Shown here piece after piece: positions 22,397 to 54,969 of a stretch of DNA of 64,000 nucleotides (the first letter of the stretch is position 1; every line of letters starts with the position of its first letter). The notes beneath the pieces were generated by a model, which was given only the letters and a program-made list of their open reading frames with translations, was not told where the DNA came from and did not search any database. This DNA is from Meiothermus sp. (GTDB lineage Bacteria > Deinococcota > Deinococci > Deinococcales > Thermaceae): assembly GCF_026004055.1 (NCBI RefSeq), contig NZ_BPIJ01000001.1, positions 310,001 through 374,000 on the forward strand. The letters run 5' to 3'. The position numbers and the translations under genes were made by a program.

Positions 22397-22553
22397 GGCG
22401 TGCGTGTGCGAATGCATTGTTGTAGCGCTGCTCGTGTCTAGTTGCATGTCTCAGGTCGCAGGTTGCAGGTTACGGAGCGCAACCAGGAGCCTACGTCAGG
22501 GGTTTGACGTGTCCAATACATCTTGCGAAGCTGTCCAAACAGATGCTCACTCA

Positions 22554-22570
22554 GTGGTCTGGTAAGTAAA
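22554..22570 (+). repeat. solitary IS630/MITE-type terminal repeat
   Basis: GTGGTCTGGTAAGTAAA matches the terminal inverted repeat of the A/B elements and the IS630 remnant. No partner end is visible nearby. It lies just upstream of the promoter of the low-G+C Mrr-like gene. Confidence 0.5.
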
Positions 22571-22580
22571 GTTCGCAACC

Positions 22581-22610
22581 TTGAAAACTTTGCAGAGATC
22601 AGGCTATACT
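22581..22610 (+). promoter_or_regulatory. promoter of the Mrr-like nuclease gene
   Basis: TTGAAA (22581-22586) and TATACT (22605-22610) with an 18-nt spacer. Transcription would start near 22617, about 20 nt before the ATG at 22637, which helps decide the start. Confidence 0.6.
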
Positions 22611-22636
22611 TCAGACTAAAAAACGGTGAAACGTTT

Positions 22637-24277
22637 ATGGGCCGTTCATTCAACTACTACGTTCGCCAACTAGCTCGAGAAGCAAGAAGAGCTGAGGCGG
22701 CCAAAAAGCATCAGCTTAGGGAAGCTGAACGGAAAAGGAAAGCAAAGGAGCGTGAAGAGCGCGCTCAGATTGCTGAGCTCAAACGTCTTGCCAAAGAATC
22801 AGAAAAGGCTAAAAAGGAGTTGGAGAAGCTCCAAAAGCAAATGTATCTTGAATCCAGATTACAAGAAGTAGAAGAAAAGAATCTGGAATTAAGTGCAAGA
22901 ATTGAAAGCTATAAAAATTTGCTTGCAGACACCTTACACAAGGATGATGCTATAAGTTTCGAGTCGTTAAAACCAAGCAAAAAATTTCCTCCCTTTGATC
23001 CACCAAGGGAACTAAGAGAACCGCTAGTTGCACCAAAAGAAGACGATTATTTCAGCGCATTAAAGCCACCAACCGGCTTAGCTAGGCTTGTTCCTGGAGC
23101 AGTAAGACGCTACGAGGATGCTCTTAATAAAGCAAGAGATAGGTACCAGCAGGCAGTTGAGGAGTACAAGCTCAAGGAACAATCTCGACTGAAAAGGTTG
23201 GAAGAACTTAGGGTTGAATATGATAAGAAGAGGCAAGCTTTTCTTGAAGAAGTTGCTGCCAAGCATTCTGAAATAGATGAATTCGAAAAACGTTATCGCT
23301 CAGGAGAAGTTGAGGCTGTAATTACCTATAACTCGATGGTGTTGGAGCGCTCTGAGTACCCTGAGGAGTTTCCACATCAATACCGAGTTGCCTATGTTCC
23401 CGAATCTAAAGAACTCGTAGTAGAGCTGGATCTGCCTGCTCCGGATGTAATTCCTAGGGAACTTGAATTCAAATACAACAAATCAAAAGACTCCATCGAT
23501 TTCAAGCTGAGGAAGGACAGTGAAATAAAGAGTTTGTATCAGGAAATTGTTTCATCTCTGGCTCTTAGGACTATTCACGAAGTCTTAGAAGCAGATCAGG
23601 AAAACCATATTCATGTAGTCACATTTAATGGTTTTGTTGATACGGTTGACCTTGCAAGTGGAAATAGCATCAGGCCTTGCATTATTTCGGTTCGGACAAC
23701 GCGTGAAGAATTTTTACGTATTAATCTCAGCCGTGTAGATAAGACTGCTTGTCTACGTAGCCTAAAGGCCCAGATATCACCTCAGGCGAGCGAGATGATA
23801 CCTGTAAAACCAGTAGTTGAGTTCAACATGGTGGATAAAAGATTCATTGAGCAAGATAACATTTTGGCGGGTTTGGATAGTAGGCCTAACTTGATGGATT
23901 TACGTCCTGCTGAATTTGAAAACTTGGTAAGTAATCTATTTCAGCAGATGGGCTTGGAGTCCAAGCTAACACGTACATCCAGGGATGGTGGTGTTGATGT
24001 AGTTGCTTTTGATGTTCGCCCTGTAATTGGAGGAAAAGTTGTGATTCAGGCTAAGAGGTACAAGAACACTGTAGGCGTATCAGCAGTTAGGGATTTGTAC
24101 GGTACTATGCTCAACGAAGGTGCCAACAAAGGGATTTTGGTTACTACTAGCGGTTATGGCACGGACGCCTATGAGTTTGCCAAAGATAAACCAATTGAAC
24201 TTATTGACGGTGGAGGATTGCTGTATTTGCTTGACCAGATTGGTGTGAAGGCCAAAATTGTAATTCCATCCGTTTAG
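22637..24277 (+). CDS. coiled-coil protein with C-terminal Mrr-like restriction endonuclease domain
   Basis: A 546-residue protein. Residues 10-100 are a Lys/Glu/Arg-rich coiled coil; a central region of unknown fold follows. The last ~120 residues are an Mrr_cat-type PD-(D/E)XK nuclease: LRPAEFENLVSNLFQQMG, catalytic Asp454 in GGVDVV, and Gln471-Ala-Lys473 in VVIQAKRYK. Mrr proteins cut modified or foreign DNA. No methylase or second subunit is adjacent, so it may act alone. Its base composition is visibly A/T-rich, with codons such as AAA, GAA, ATT and TTA common, unlike every neighbour. This indicates recent transfer. Confidence 0.8.
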   Translation: MGRSFNYYVRQLAREARRAEAAKKHQLREAERKRKAKEREERAQIAELKRLAKESEKAKKELEKLQKQMYLESRLQEVEEKNLELSARIESYKNLLADTLHKDDAISFESLKPSKKFPPFDPPRELREPLVAPKEDDYFSALKPPTGLARLVPGAVRRYEDALNKARDRYQQAVEEYKLKEQSRLKRLEELRVEYDKKRQAFLEEVAAKHSEIDEFEKRYRSGEVEAVITYNSMVLERSEYPEEFPHQYRVAYVPESKELVVELDLPAPDVIPRELEFKYNKSKDSIDFKLRKDSEIKSLYQEIVSSLALRTIHEVLEADQENHIHVVTFNGFVDTVDLASGNSIRPCIISVRTTREEFLRINLSRVDKTACLRSLKAQISPQASEMIPVKPVVEFNMVDKRFIEQDNILAGLDSRPNLMDLRPAEFENLVSNLFQQMGLESKLTRTSRDGGVDVVAFDVRPVIGGKVVIQAKRYKNTVGVSAVRDLYGTMLNEGANKGILVTTSGYGTDAYEFAKDKPIELIDGGGLLYLLDQIGVKAKIVIPSV

Positions 24278-24304
24278 TGGCTGCGTTTAGTTAAACTTGT
24301 AGAT

Positions 24305-24382: not shown

Positions 24383-25864
24383 GTGAGACTGAAAGTTTTG
24401 TGGTTGGTGCTGCTCCTGCTGTTGCCGGGGGCGCTGGCCCAGCAGCTCCGCGAGCAGATTCGCAAATACACACTGGACAACGGCCTGCGGGTCTTGATGG
24501 TGCCGGACAAGACTGCCCCGGTAATCCACTTCAACCTGATGTTTGATGTGGGGGGGGTGGACGAAGCGCCGGGGCTGGGGGGGATTGCCCACATGGTCGA
24601 GCATATGGCCTTCAAGGGCACCCCCAGCATCGGCAGCCTGGACTGGGCCAAGGAGAAAGCCGCCCTCGAGGCCATTGACAAAGCCAGGGCCGACCTCGAC
24701 CGGGCCCTTGCCAACCGCGCTTCGCAGGAAGAGGTGCAGCGCCTTACGGCTCTTTTCAACCAGGCCCGCGAAGAAGCCAAGAAACTGGCCCTGCCCAACG
24801 CCATCGACCAGCTCTTTACCAACAACGGCGAACAGGGCCTGAACGCCTCCACCGGCTACGACCGCACCGACTACCGGGTTTCGCTGCCTTCTAACCGGCT
24901 CGAGCTGTACTTGCGGGTCTATGCCGACGTGATGCTGAATGCGGTTTTCCGCAGCTTCTACGAAGAGGCCGATGTGGTGTTGGAAGAACGTCGCCAGCGC
25001 AGCGAGAACGACCCCAACGGGGCTTTGAGCGAGGCTTTCTTGCGAACCGCTTTCCAGGTGCATCCCTACGGGCGGCCCCTGATTGGCAGCCGGGAGGAAA
25101 TTCAGGGCTACCGGGTAGACAAAGCCCTGGAGTTCTGGAAGACCCACTACCACCCCAACCGGGCGGTGCTGGTGCTGGTAGGGGATGTGGAGCCCGAGCG
25201 GGACATTCAGCTCGTGCGCCGCTATATGGGTACGGTTCCCAGGGGCCCTGCGCGTCCTAACCTGAACATTCCCGCCGAGCCGCCCCAGACCGCCGAGCGG
25301 CGGGTAAGCATCGAGTACAACGCCCAGCCCAGCCTGCTGATGGGCTTCCACAAGCCCACCTACCCCAACCGCGAAGCTTACGTGATGGACATGATTGATT
25401 CCATCCTGACCGAGGGGCGTACCAGCCGCCTCTTCCGCCGCCTGGTGATTCAGGAGCAAGCAGCGCTCAATGTGAGCTCGAGCTCGTCCTCGCCGGGCTT
25501 TCGCTATCCCAACATGTTCACCATCTCGGCCCAGCCCCGTGCTCCGCGCACTACCGCGGATTTGGAGCGTCTCATCTACGAAGAGCTCGAGCGCCTCAAG
25601 AACGAGCCGGTCACGGCCCAAGAATTGCAGCGGGTGCGCAACCAGACCCGCGCGGCCTACCTGCGGGTGCTTCAGGGCGGCCCCGGCCTGGCCCAGACCT
25701 TGGCCTTTTATGAGCTGTTCTTTGGGGGCTACCAGCGTATCTTCGAGGAAGAAGCCATCTACAACACCATCACGCCTGAGGAAATCCAGCAGGCCGCGCG
25801 CAAATACTTCACTCCAGAGAACCGAACCGTGGCCACGCTAATAACCAAAGGAGGCAGCCGATGA
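24383..25864 (+). CDS. M16 family zinc peptidase, exported
   Basis: A 493-residue pitrilysin/processing-peptidase family protein with a signal peptide (VLWLVLLLLLPGALAQQ). The inverted zinc motif HXXEH is present as His69-Met-Val-Glu72-His73 within GIAHMVEHMAFKGTP. It should be the catalytic half of a heterodimer with the next gene, degrading peptides outside the cytoplasm. GTG start with AAGGAAGGGGG upstream. Its stop overlaps the start of the second M16 gene (ATGA). Confidence 0.92.
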   Translation: MRLKVLWLVLLLLLPGALAQQLREQIRKYTLDNGLRVLMVPDKTAPVIHFNLMFDVGGVDEAPGLGGIAHMVEHMAFKGTPSIGSLDWAKEKAALEAIDKARADLDRALANRASQEEVQRLTALFNQAREEAKKLALPNAIDQLFTNNGEQGLNASTGYDRTDYRVSLPSNRLELYLRVYADVMLNAVFRSFYEEADVVLEERRQRSENDPNGALSEAFLRTAFQVHPYGRPLIGSREEIQGYRVDKALEFWKTHYHPNRAVLVLVGDVEPERDIQLVRRYMGTVPRGPARPNLNIPAEPPQTAERRVSIEYNAQPSLLMGFHKPTYPNREAYVMDMIDSILTEGRTSRLFRRLVIQEQAALNVSSSSSSPGFRYPNMFTISAQPRAPRTTADLERLIYEELERLKNEPVTAQELQRVRNQTRAAYLRVLQGGPGLAQTLAFYELFFGGYQRIFEEEAIYNTITPEEIQQAARKYFTPENRTVATLITKGGSR

Positions 25865-41221: not shown

Positions 41222-41497
41222 GTGGTCTGGTAACACAGTATGTGACCCCACTTTTTCCGTCATTGCGAGCATCCGCAGGATGCGAAGCAATCCAGAACGA
41301 ACTCCCACGAATACCCGGTACAGCGAACTTTGCTGTATCGGGGACATTACGGTGGGAGACGCGACAGAATCTCTGCCCCGGCCAGCCTGCACAAGGCTAT
41401 CTGGATTGCTTCGTCGGCCGGGGCCTCCTCGCAATGACAAGGTGCTCACGTTTGGATTTGTCAGGGCAAAGTGACGTAAACCGGATTATCAGACCAC
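41222..41497. mobile_element. family A element, copy 1, carrying a nested family C element
   Basis: Ends are GTGGTCTGGTAAC and its near-complement ATTATCAGACCAC, flanked by TA. Inside are the arms CATTGCGAGCATCCGCAGG and GCGAAGCAATCCAG with their complements near 41410-41440. A 69-bp block at 41296-41364 interrupts it compared with copy 2 at 46182. No coding capacity. Confidence 0.8.
41296..41364 (+). repeat. family C repeat nested in family A element
   Basis: Degenerate C element (AACGAACTCCCACGAA ... GGTGGGAGACGCGA). CAG is repeated on both sides (41293-41295, 41365-41367). The uninterrupted sequence CCAGAATCTCTG is present in copy 2 of family A at 46255, showing the empty site. Confidence 0.7.
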
Positions 41498-41500
41498 TAA

Positions 41501-41840
41501 GTGGTCTGGTAACTAAATTTCCGAAGTTATGTACCGCACCCCGAATACATCGTTGTAGAGATTCCATCCCACTTCGGCCCCCGAGATGGCCTAAAAACGC
41601 CCTCCCTACCGCGTAGGGAGGGTGGGGGAGGGTATCAGGCAAGGCCCCCAATCCGCTGCGTGAAGGGCCAGGTCAGCCACCCCACCTGGCCTCCCCTACG
41701 CAGTAGGGGAGGGAAGGGGCGAAGCGGGGTGGGGTGCTTTTTGCATGACCGTACAGGCAAGACACCGAAGGCCCAGGTTTACGAGACACGGCGCGTTCTG
41801 AAGGCTAAACCCCATACTGCGTATTTTGTTACCAGACCAC
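41501..41840 (-). mobile_element. family B element, copy 1 (340 bp)
   Basis: Bounded by GTGGTCTGGTAAC and GTTACCAGACCAC and shares the same length (340 bp) and nearly the same sequence as the copies at 46390 and 54630, but in the opposite orientation. It contains two strong stem-loops (CCCTCCCTACC/GGTAGGGAGGG type and CTCCCCTAC/GTAGGGGAG). Open frames inside are not thought to be coding. Confidence 0.85.
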
Positions 41841-46389: not shown

Positions 46390-46729
46390 GTGGTCTGGTA
46401 ACAAAATACGCAGTATGGGGTTTAGCCTTCAGAACGCGCCGTGTCTCGTAAACCTGGGCCTTCGGTGCCTTGCCTGTACGGTCATGCAAAAAGCACCCCA
46501 CCCCGCTTCGCCCCTTCCCTCCCCTACTGCGTAGGGGAGGCCAGGTGGGGTGGCTGACTTGGCCCTTCACGCAGCGGATTGGGGGCCTTGCCTGATACCC
46601 TCCCCCACCCTCCCTACGCGGTAGGGAGGGCGTTTTTAGGCCATCTCGGGGGCCGAAGTGGGATGGAATCTTTACATCGATGTATTCGGTGTGCGGTACA
46701 TAACTTCGGAAATTTAGTTACCAGACCAC
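46390..46729 (+). mobile_element. family B element, copy 2 (340 bp)
   Basis: Same ends and length as copies 1 and 3. It is separated from the family A element only by TTA, so the two elements share a TA-type junction. Contains the two palindromic G/C-rich stem-loops. Confidence 0.85.
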
Positions 46730-54629: not shown

Positions 54630-54969
54630 GTGGTCTGGTAACAAAATACGCAGTATGGGGTTTAGCCTTCAGAACGCGCCGTGTCTCGTAAACCTGGGCC
54701 TTCGGTGCCTTGCCTGTACGGTCATGCAAAAAGCACCCCACCCCGCTTCGCCCCTTTCCTCCCCTACTGCGTAGGGGAGGCCAGGTGGGGTGGCTGACCT
54801 GGCCCTTCACGCAGCGGATTGGGGGCCTTGCCTGATACCCTCCCCCACCCTCCCTACGCGGTAGGGAGGGCGTTTTTAGGCCATCTCGGGGGCCGAAGTG
54901 GGATGGAATCTCTACAACGATGTATTCGGGGTGCGGTACAAAACTTCGGAAATTTAGTTACCAGACCAT
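54630..54969 (+). mobile_element. family B element, copy 3 (340 bp)
   Basis: Third 340-bp copy, same orientation as copy 2, ends GTGGTCTGGTAAC and GTTACCAGACCAT. It abuts the family D element on the left and a family A fragment on the right. Confidence 0.85.

Follow-up and report, generated by a model that had tools for sequence, protein, structure and literature searches.

A probable stand-alone defence nuclease inserted in a Meiothermus genome, with an N-terminal module that also occurs beside SNIPE

Results

Gene content and base composition

The window analysed here, a 64,000-nucleotide stretch of a Meiothermus sp. genome (contig NZ_BPIJ01000001.1 of assembly GCF_026004055.1, positions 310,001 to 374,000), contains a nuclease gene flanked on the left by a di-haem cytochrome c peroxidase gene with a small ORF and on the right by two M16 peptidase genes, so that the intact flanks described in the original prediction were recovered on both sides (Table 1). 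The reading frame is open from a TTG at 22523, and the ATG at 22637 is the start that matches the N-terminal M(G/A)RR motif of the family.

Table 1. Features of the nuclease locus, in window coordinates
Feature	Residues	Position	Strand	Basis or remark
Left edge of insertion		within 22523..22553	.	G006 empty-site homology to ~22523, possibly to the terminal repeat
Solitary MITE terminal repeat		22554..22570	+	16/17 bases; canonical C-TNA target CTCA directly before
Promoter-like TTGAAA-18-TATACT		22581..22610	+	sequence present; not above shuffle expectation
Nuclease gene	546 residues	22637..24277	+	ORF and PADLOC mREase_IV match
N-terminal basic motif and long coiled-coil helix	1-93	22637..22915	+	AlphaFold helix 3-93; motif from alignment
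Second long helix	155-221	23099..23299	+	AlphaFold model
Central alpha/beta domain	224-412	23306..23872	+	alignment of 45 sequences; phrog_38135
Low-confidence linker, probably flexible	396-413	23822..23875	+	pLDDT under 50
Mrr_cat nuclease domain	421-531	23897..24229	+	Pfam PF04471, E 7.8e-33; fold matches
Putative catalytic D454, Q471, K473	454-473	23996..24055	+	D...QxK variant of PD-(D/E)xK
TTTAGTTA, 8-base inverted match to MITE end		24286..24293	-	only window copy outside MITEs
Right edge of insertion		24304	.	empty-site homology resumes (G004, G006, G015 and others)

The predicted difference in base and codon use from the neighbours is clear: GC content over the gene is 0.41–0.44, compared with 0.57–0.69 in the adjacent intervals beyond the transition and about 0.6 in the surroundings, and GC by codon position is 0.56/0.34/0.38, the third-position value standing against 0.79–0.84 in four other genes of the window. 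Homologues behave similarly: in 27 of 28 loci, the gene has a lower total GC than the median for the remaining ORFs, and in 24 of 28 its GC3 is lower as well (24 genome-contig loci, three plasmid loci and G008; comparison ORFs of at least 250 aa, mechanically called; locus L124 was omitted, a full homologue being absent there). AT-richness is thus a trait of the family across hosts of many kinds. Low GC content, being usual for the family in many hosts, carries little information on the donor, and we rejected any assignment of a donor from base composition.

Insertion site in same-genus genomes

Comparison with 17 same-genus genomes showed that the gene is a real and recent single-gene insertion. 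The right flank (24383-25864) was matched in 14 of the 17 genomes and the left flank in at least 13, and in 13 (G002, G003, G004, G006-G014, and G016) both flanks were adjacent, with 87–477 bp between the matches and the gene absent. In G015, the contig begins 832 bp left of the right flank and the gene is absent from that piece; the right flank was unmatched in G001, G005, and G017, which therefore fall outside the empty-site count. The comparison with strains lacking the gene, proposed earlier as a way to find the boundaries, located both edges (Table 1): homology to the empty site of G006 extends to about 22523, or perhaps as far as 22554, where the repeat end lies, and starts again at 24304, giving an insert of 1.75–1.78 kb. 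Conservation at this site with the same composition, which the original prediction named as the finding that would count against it, was not seen, as none of the 17 genomes carries a full-length homologue there.

Only one of the 17 genomes (G008) encodes a full-length homologue elsewhere, at 59% identity, on another contig and between efflux-system genes. The tree places this copy nearer to L140 (on a viral contig) than to the window gene, suggesting separate arrivals. In a sample of the phylum, the family model was matched at 1e-30 in two of 111 genomes. The empty sites and the lone homologue in G008 support the proposed horizontally acquired single-gene island with a stand-alone nuclease.

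A different short repeat, about 115 bp long and bounded by ATACCAA...TTGGTAT, occurs in this intergenic region in two relatives (L049, about 1251-1365, in G006, and L047 in G015), and the spacer therefore collects small insertions. In G011, a segment (L124, G011:C17:24992-25423) near an integrase-like ORF matches residues 28-175 in part and contains an internal stop; it is perhaps a decayed copy, and coiled-coil bias may contribute to the match.

Repeat end, MITE family, and promoter-like sequence

The 17-bp repeat upstream of the gene is a genuine repeat end, matching at 16 of 17 bases, of a MITE family with complete copies of about 340 bp at 41501-41840, 46390-46729, and 54630-54969 in the window. 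Genome-wide (3.18 Mb searched, three contigs) the repeat was listed at 51 places, and 18 of the 19 loci fetched had paired ends. The clear flanks (CTGA...TGAG, CTAA...TAAG, and CTTA...TTAG) show a 3-bp TNA target duplication (TGA, TAA, or TTA); flanks were mixed at some loci, such as those with nested copies. IS630-type elements duplicate a 2-bp TA target, and the assignment to that type was therefore not upheld; the TNA duplication presumably points to an IS5-type element for this MITE family. Nesting of one copy at the end of another, with CCAGACCACTTAGTGGTCTGG junctions, was seen for several copies.

The solitary end is not peculiar to the gene, since further unpaired ends occur in the window at 41222 and 46180. 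At the right edge, TTTAGTTA, noticed after the fact, is a possible but weak candidate for a vestige of the right end. The complete promoter put forward earlier loses its value as evidence: the TTGAAA-18-TATACT sequence exists, but the search gave two promoter-like sites where shuffled sequence predicts 2.9.

Protein architecture

The full-length AlphaFold model (mean pLDDT 84.5) agrees with the predicted 100-residue coiled coil and approximately 300-residue region ahead of an Mrr nuclease domain, showing the coiled coil as one long helix, a pre-Mrr region of about 320 residues, and a nuclease domain at residues 424-536. The central domain consists of strands and helices from residue 225 to about 375, followed by the linker. 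Folded alone with the alignment of 45 sequences, it reached a pLDDT of 86.7 and a pTM of 0.80, and this 190-residue domain is nearly free of indels among relatives. The family of unknown function phrog_38135 matches residues 166-380.

Mrr_cat was detected by Pfam in all 25 aligned members, and D454, Q471, and K473 are invariant in the same 25 sequences; the D...QxK motif is read here after Table 3 of PMC3874153. The nuclease domain matched AF1548 (1y88; Z 13.2, 2.1 A, 108 aligned residues), AspBHI (Z 12.5, 2.8 A, 121 aligned), and MspJI (Z 10.9, 2.7 A, 119 aligned). The central domain alone had no PDB match at a Foldseek E value of 0.001 or below and a VIA Z score of at most 7.6; its best VIA rows were C-terminal domains of MamM (Z 7.6, 75 aligned, 1.9 A), below the level that the tool treats as meaningful, and neither AspBHI nor MspJI was among its VIA rows. 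An absent PDB match does not demonstrate a new fold.

Two further readings of the front part were set aside. A second nuclease in the central region was considered on account of an alpha-beta4-alpha-beta2 arrangement with an ExK motif in some members, but the motif was unconserved in alignment A1 and no confident fold match was obtained. An amphipathic N-terminal membrane anchor (hydrophobic moment 0.63 over residues 4-21 of the window protein) was dropped because the moment is only 0.17 in P0002, the Mrr-less relative described below. Distant members (L030-L044) begin with a motif of about 40 residues, HxGLxKYRVVRG...W.E.W, for which no Pfam name was found, and the window clade has M(G/A)RRxGF instead.

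Distribution and neighbourhoods of the family

The family has been transferred widely. The 24 genome-contig loci include Chloroflexota, Bacillota, Pseudomonadota, Acidobacteriota, Actinomycetota, and methanogenic archaea; 26 further loci lie on viral contigs (some are near-copies, and L142 repeats L023), and plasmid copies exist. Relatives are inserted at unrelated sites, mostly beside unrelated genes, and three Anaerolineales loci share a site with a conserved neighbourhood. PADLOC matched nine of ten neighbours, including DarTG, bSEFIR, PDC-S06, and Mokosh-type helicases; the ten were hand-picked for a defence-like look, so the proportion should not be read as a frequency. Some viral-contig neighbourhoods, such as L146, resemble prophage early regions as judged by eye from the sequences. 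On one viral contig (L141, 4129-4893), a Dam-like DNA methyltransferase gene lies 107 bp upstream of an Mrr-form gene, which could be a restriction-modification arrangement.

An N-terminal module without Mrr paired with SNIPE

The new observation of this analysis is that the front part of the protein also occurs without Mrr, paired with SNIPE. The central-region search identified a 415-aa protein of a Kocuria rosea plasmid (P0002) consisting of the coiled coil and the module without an Mrr domain. Immediately downstream, with a 1-bp overlap (L127), lies a gene for a DUF4041 and T5orf172 protein (P0003), which PADLOC identified as PD-Lambda-1 (E 2.1e-96); P0002 itself matched the mREase_IV profile over positions 19-377 only. 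SNIPE is PD-Lambda-1, a membrane-bound nuclease that cleaves phage DNA as it is being injected, with the phage injection machinery, or tape measure protein, as its cue (PMC13190303).

A search with P0002 against 396 genomes of the phylum of L030, a locus recorded as from an Actinomycetes bacterium (cut-off 1e-15), gave matches in nine: seven with Mrr (L169 and L171 only partly), G503 with an adjoining SNIPE, and G367, whose truncated ORF has neither Mrr nor SNIPE. A second search, with the G503 protein against 397 genomes of its order (cut-off 1e-30), found the module encoded in 21 genomes, 11 with Mrr in cis and 10 without; G315 and G503 turn up in both searches. SNIPE (DUF4041/GIY-YIG) adjoins the module in all 10 Mrr-less genomes of the order, downstream in nine (G503 and L183-L190) and upstream in one (L202), and in none of the 11 Mrr-in-cis loci within 1.5 kb of flank. 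With Kocuria, a separate module gene next to a SNIPE homologue was found at 11 loci in all, and same-strand gaps in 10 of these pairs, Kocuria included, range from -4 to +27 bp. No SNIPE was seen in 59 further Mrr-form loci or in the window, with flank lengths that varied and near-copies kept.

No further Mrr-less pairs appeared in viral contigs (alignment A3) or in phages. Module proteins with neither nuclease nor SNIPE do occur, namely L128 in G047, the DUF4236 forms L129, L130, and L139, and the truncated ORF of G367. L128 (1477-2553) encodes 358 aa and matches phrog_38135 at 3.7e-46, with no SNIPE among its neighbours. Conversely, P0003 was matched by 178 plasmid records, and among the 18 records of a separate search the only Mrr-less module was that of Kocuria; most plasmid SNIPE homologues thus lack the module, and SNIPE therefore does not need it. 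Full-text searches of the literature found no SNIPE partner gene and no link to Mrr, and the words "Mrr" and "coiled" have no occurrences in the SNIPE paper (PMC13190303).

Phylogeny and TerD variants

In a tree of the central domain (71 rows, 200 bootstrap trees, with a bootstrap that had not settled), ten SNIPE-paired forms made up one clade (100/100) amid actinomycete Mrr forms, and L202 stood apart. The SNIPE label requires two changes on this tree; a single origin, recovered in 2% of the 200 bootstrap trees, is compatible with the starred branches. At least two label changes are our preferred count from the tree, and because 10 of the 11 SNIPE-paired forms share one clade, the alternation reflects few events.

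TerD domains were found in both forms. The L202 module protein ends in TerD (E 6.9e-22) and there is a partial TerD (2.2e-9) at the start of its SNIPE, L180 combines Mrr with TerD (1.4e-23), and a remote DUF4236 relative adjoins TerC/TerD genes on a plasmid. The 2012 work of Anantharaman et al. on Ter systems reportedly may already list some of these proteins.

Comparison with known systems

PADLOC model PDLC03663 (mREase_IV) matched window residues 28-536 over profile positions 25-527 of 544 (E 7.7e-99). The architecture, central region included, is therefore already catalogued, and the HMM search suggested for the central region yields this model together with phrog_38135; no characterised member of the family was found. 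The label "Type IV methyl-directed" is PADLOC's own. Compared with E. coli Mrr, the window protein shares Mrr_cat with its D...QxK motif but lacks Mrr_N, for which Pfam gave no match at E values up to 10 in the window protein and up to 1 in 25 members; its N-terminus is one long helix, and the 100-residue coiled coil and 190-residue module stand in its place. The claim that the protein departs from standard Mrr thus holds against the E. coli enzyme, and the claim that its central region is unmatched gives way to the PADLOC model, which covers the whole protein. MspJI and AspBHI provide the best fold matches among characterised enzymes through their C-terminal Mrr-type nucleases, but no sign of their N-terminal SRA-like reader was seen in the window protein, by a fold search that is not decisive on this point; the coiled coil and alpha/beta module stand there instead.

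The likeness to SNIPE lies in the pre-Mrr module, which is a separate gene beside the SNIPE homologues of the 11 loci. The window protein itself lacks DUF4041 and GIY-YIG (no Pfam match; PD-Lambda-1 only at E 6.4) and has no predicted membrane helix, its highest 19-residue hydropathy being 1.31 in a crude test. E. coli SNIPE is a single membrane-bound protein, and a transmembrane anchor is present in 66% of SNIPE homologues (PMC13190303). The N-terminal 130 residues of the eleven partnered SNIPEs showed no membrane helix by the same kind of crude hydropathy test (highest value 1.34).

Proteins of the DUF4236/phrog_38135 type show remote similarity to the central region (E 7.8e-10; blastp 1e-8 and 3e-5), but they carry an N-terminal DUF4236, no nuclease domain was found in them, and they sit on a very long tree branch. 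CoCoNuTs were set aside, no McrB-like gene having been seen adjoining the window gene.

Discussion

We regard the window gene as a horizontally acquired, stand-alone defence nuclease built of a swappable sensor/adaptor and an effector, and give this reading a probability of roughly 60%. The C-terminal Mrr-type PD-(D/E)xK domain would be the effector that cuts invading DNA, and the N-terminal part, comprising the coiled coil, the second helix, and the 190-residue alpha/beta domain, would be the sensor/adaptor, with the task of recognising the invader, of keeping the nuclease inactive, or both, and would set specificity. The adaptor appears to be detachable: in the window gene it would drive Mrr in cis through the flexible linker, and in some relatives it would serve, with Mrr gone, a SNIPE-type GIY-YIG nuclease encoded in the same operon, rare forms also carrying TerD. 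Two unrelated nucleases alternating around one conserved front part are as expected of a sensor/adaptor. An anti-phage role, in which the window protein would protect its host from phage, is plausible in view of the full-length match to a PADLOC defence family, the prophage-like and defence-gene neighbourhoods of relatives, and the SNIPE pairing.

The main rival, a possible though doubtful one, is a type IV (modification-dependent) restriction enzyme, as the PADLOC family label says and as the place of AspBHI and MspJI among the nearest nuclease-domain folds would suggest. Mrr-related enzymes elsewhere restrict modified plasmids in vivo, as ScoA3Mrr/SCO4213 does on m6A, but a nuclease domain of the Mrr type is also found in enzymes such as LlaGI, whose target is not methylated DNA, and the domain by itself does not imply modification dependence (PMC3874153). 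Moreover, an SRA-like or Mrr_N region was not detected in the window protein, with a fold search that is not decisive for SRA, and the relative L141 is a near neighbour of a Dam-like methyltransferase gene. The same module also pairs with SNIPE, whose published cue is the phage injection machinery (PMC13190303). Since injection is the stage at which SNIPE acts, we lean weakly, by analogy, towards an entry- or infection-linked trigger over methylation alone. SNIPE has its own DUF4041 and mostly no module neighbour, and the module may therefore regulate, localise, or add a second cue.

A non-antiviral nuclease of stress response or DNA repair within the tellurium (Ter) network, with a module that senses a cellular signal, would account for the TerD fusions to the Mrr form (L180) and the SNIPE-paired form (L202), the partial TerD on the L202 SNIPE, and the remote DUF4236 kin beside TerC/TerD genes; these are few cases, and immunity better accounts for the sporadic occurrence as single-gene insertions, for the prophage-like contigs, and for the defence neighbours, making this reading improbable. 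We consider it very improbable that the gene encodes a nuclease of the selfish or homing kind, or travels as a passenger of the MITE family, with no benefit to the host. The MITE end with its canonical TNA target at the left edge, and the eight inverted bases at the right edge that resemble the other end, would suit a MITE-borne transposon, which we set aside and keep only as a weak rival; yet the right end is absent or decayed, the paired repeat loci (18 of 19 fetched) bound elements of about 340 bp without such a gene, and relatives lie at unrelated sites with the sensor domain kept almost indel-free.

A broader version of the defence-nuclease reading, speculative and unlikely as a whole, would make the module a general infection sensor or docking adaptor that was joined more than once to unrelated nucleases, to Mrr in cis and to the GIY-YIG enzyme SNIPE in trans, with TerD as an addition. 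On this view, the window protein would be a soluble equivalent of SNIPE in a single chain, and would cut phage DNA during entry or shortly afterwards. If this is true, the methyl-directed type IV label that a large catalogue family now carries would be wrong. For single-gene "Mrr" restriction enzymes, the domain name is the sole basis of the methyl-directed label, and the occurrence of the shared front part with either Mrr in cis or SNIPE in trans is a direct genomic reason to ask whether that part is a sensor. Through the pairing, an uncharacterised family of the catalogue is connected to a nuclease whose mode of action is known, and the AT-richness of such a gene should be taken as a family trait and no clue to its donor.

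A Mokosh-type SF1 helicase gene adjoins the nuclease gene in three relatives (L120, 4162-9431; L121, 4317-10226; and L045, 9765-12551), and the protein may therefore not always act alone; these loci possibly represent a multi-gene version. In L120, the helicase and nuclease genes overlap by 1 bp, and in L121, an NYN-OST-HTH gene also lies downstream. In another relative (L176, 3052-6508, in G315), a 2-bp gap separates an Mrr-form gene from the DarT and DarG genes that come after it.
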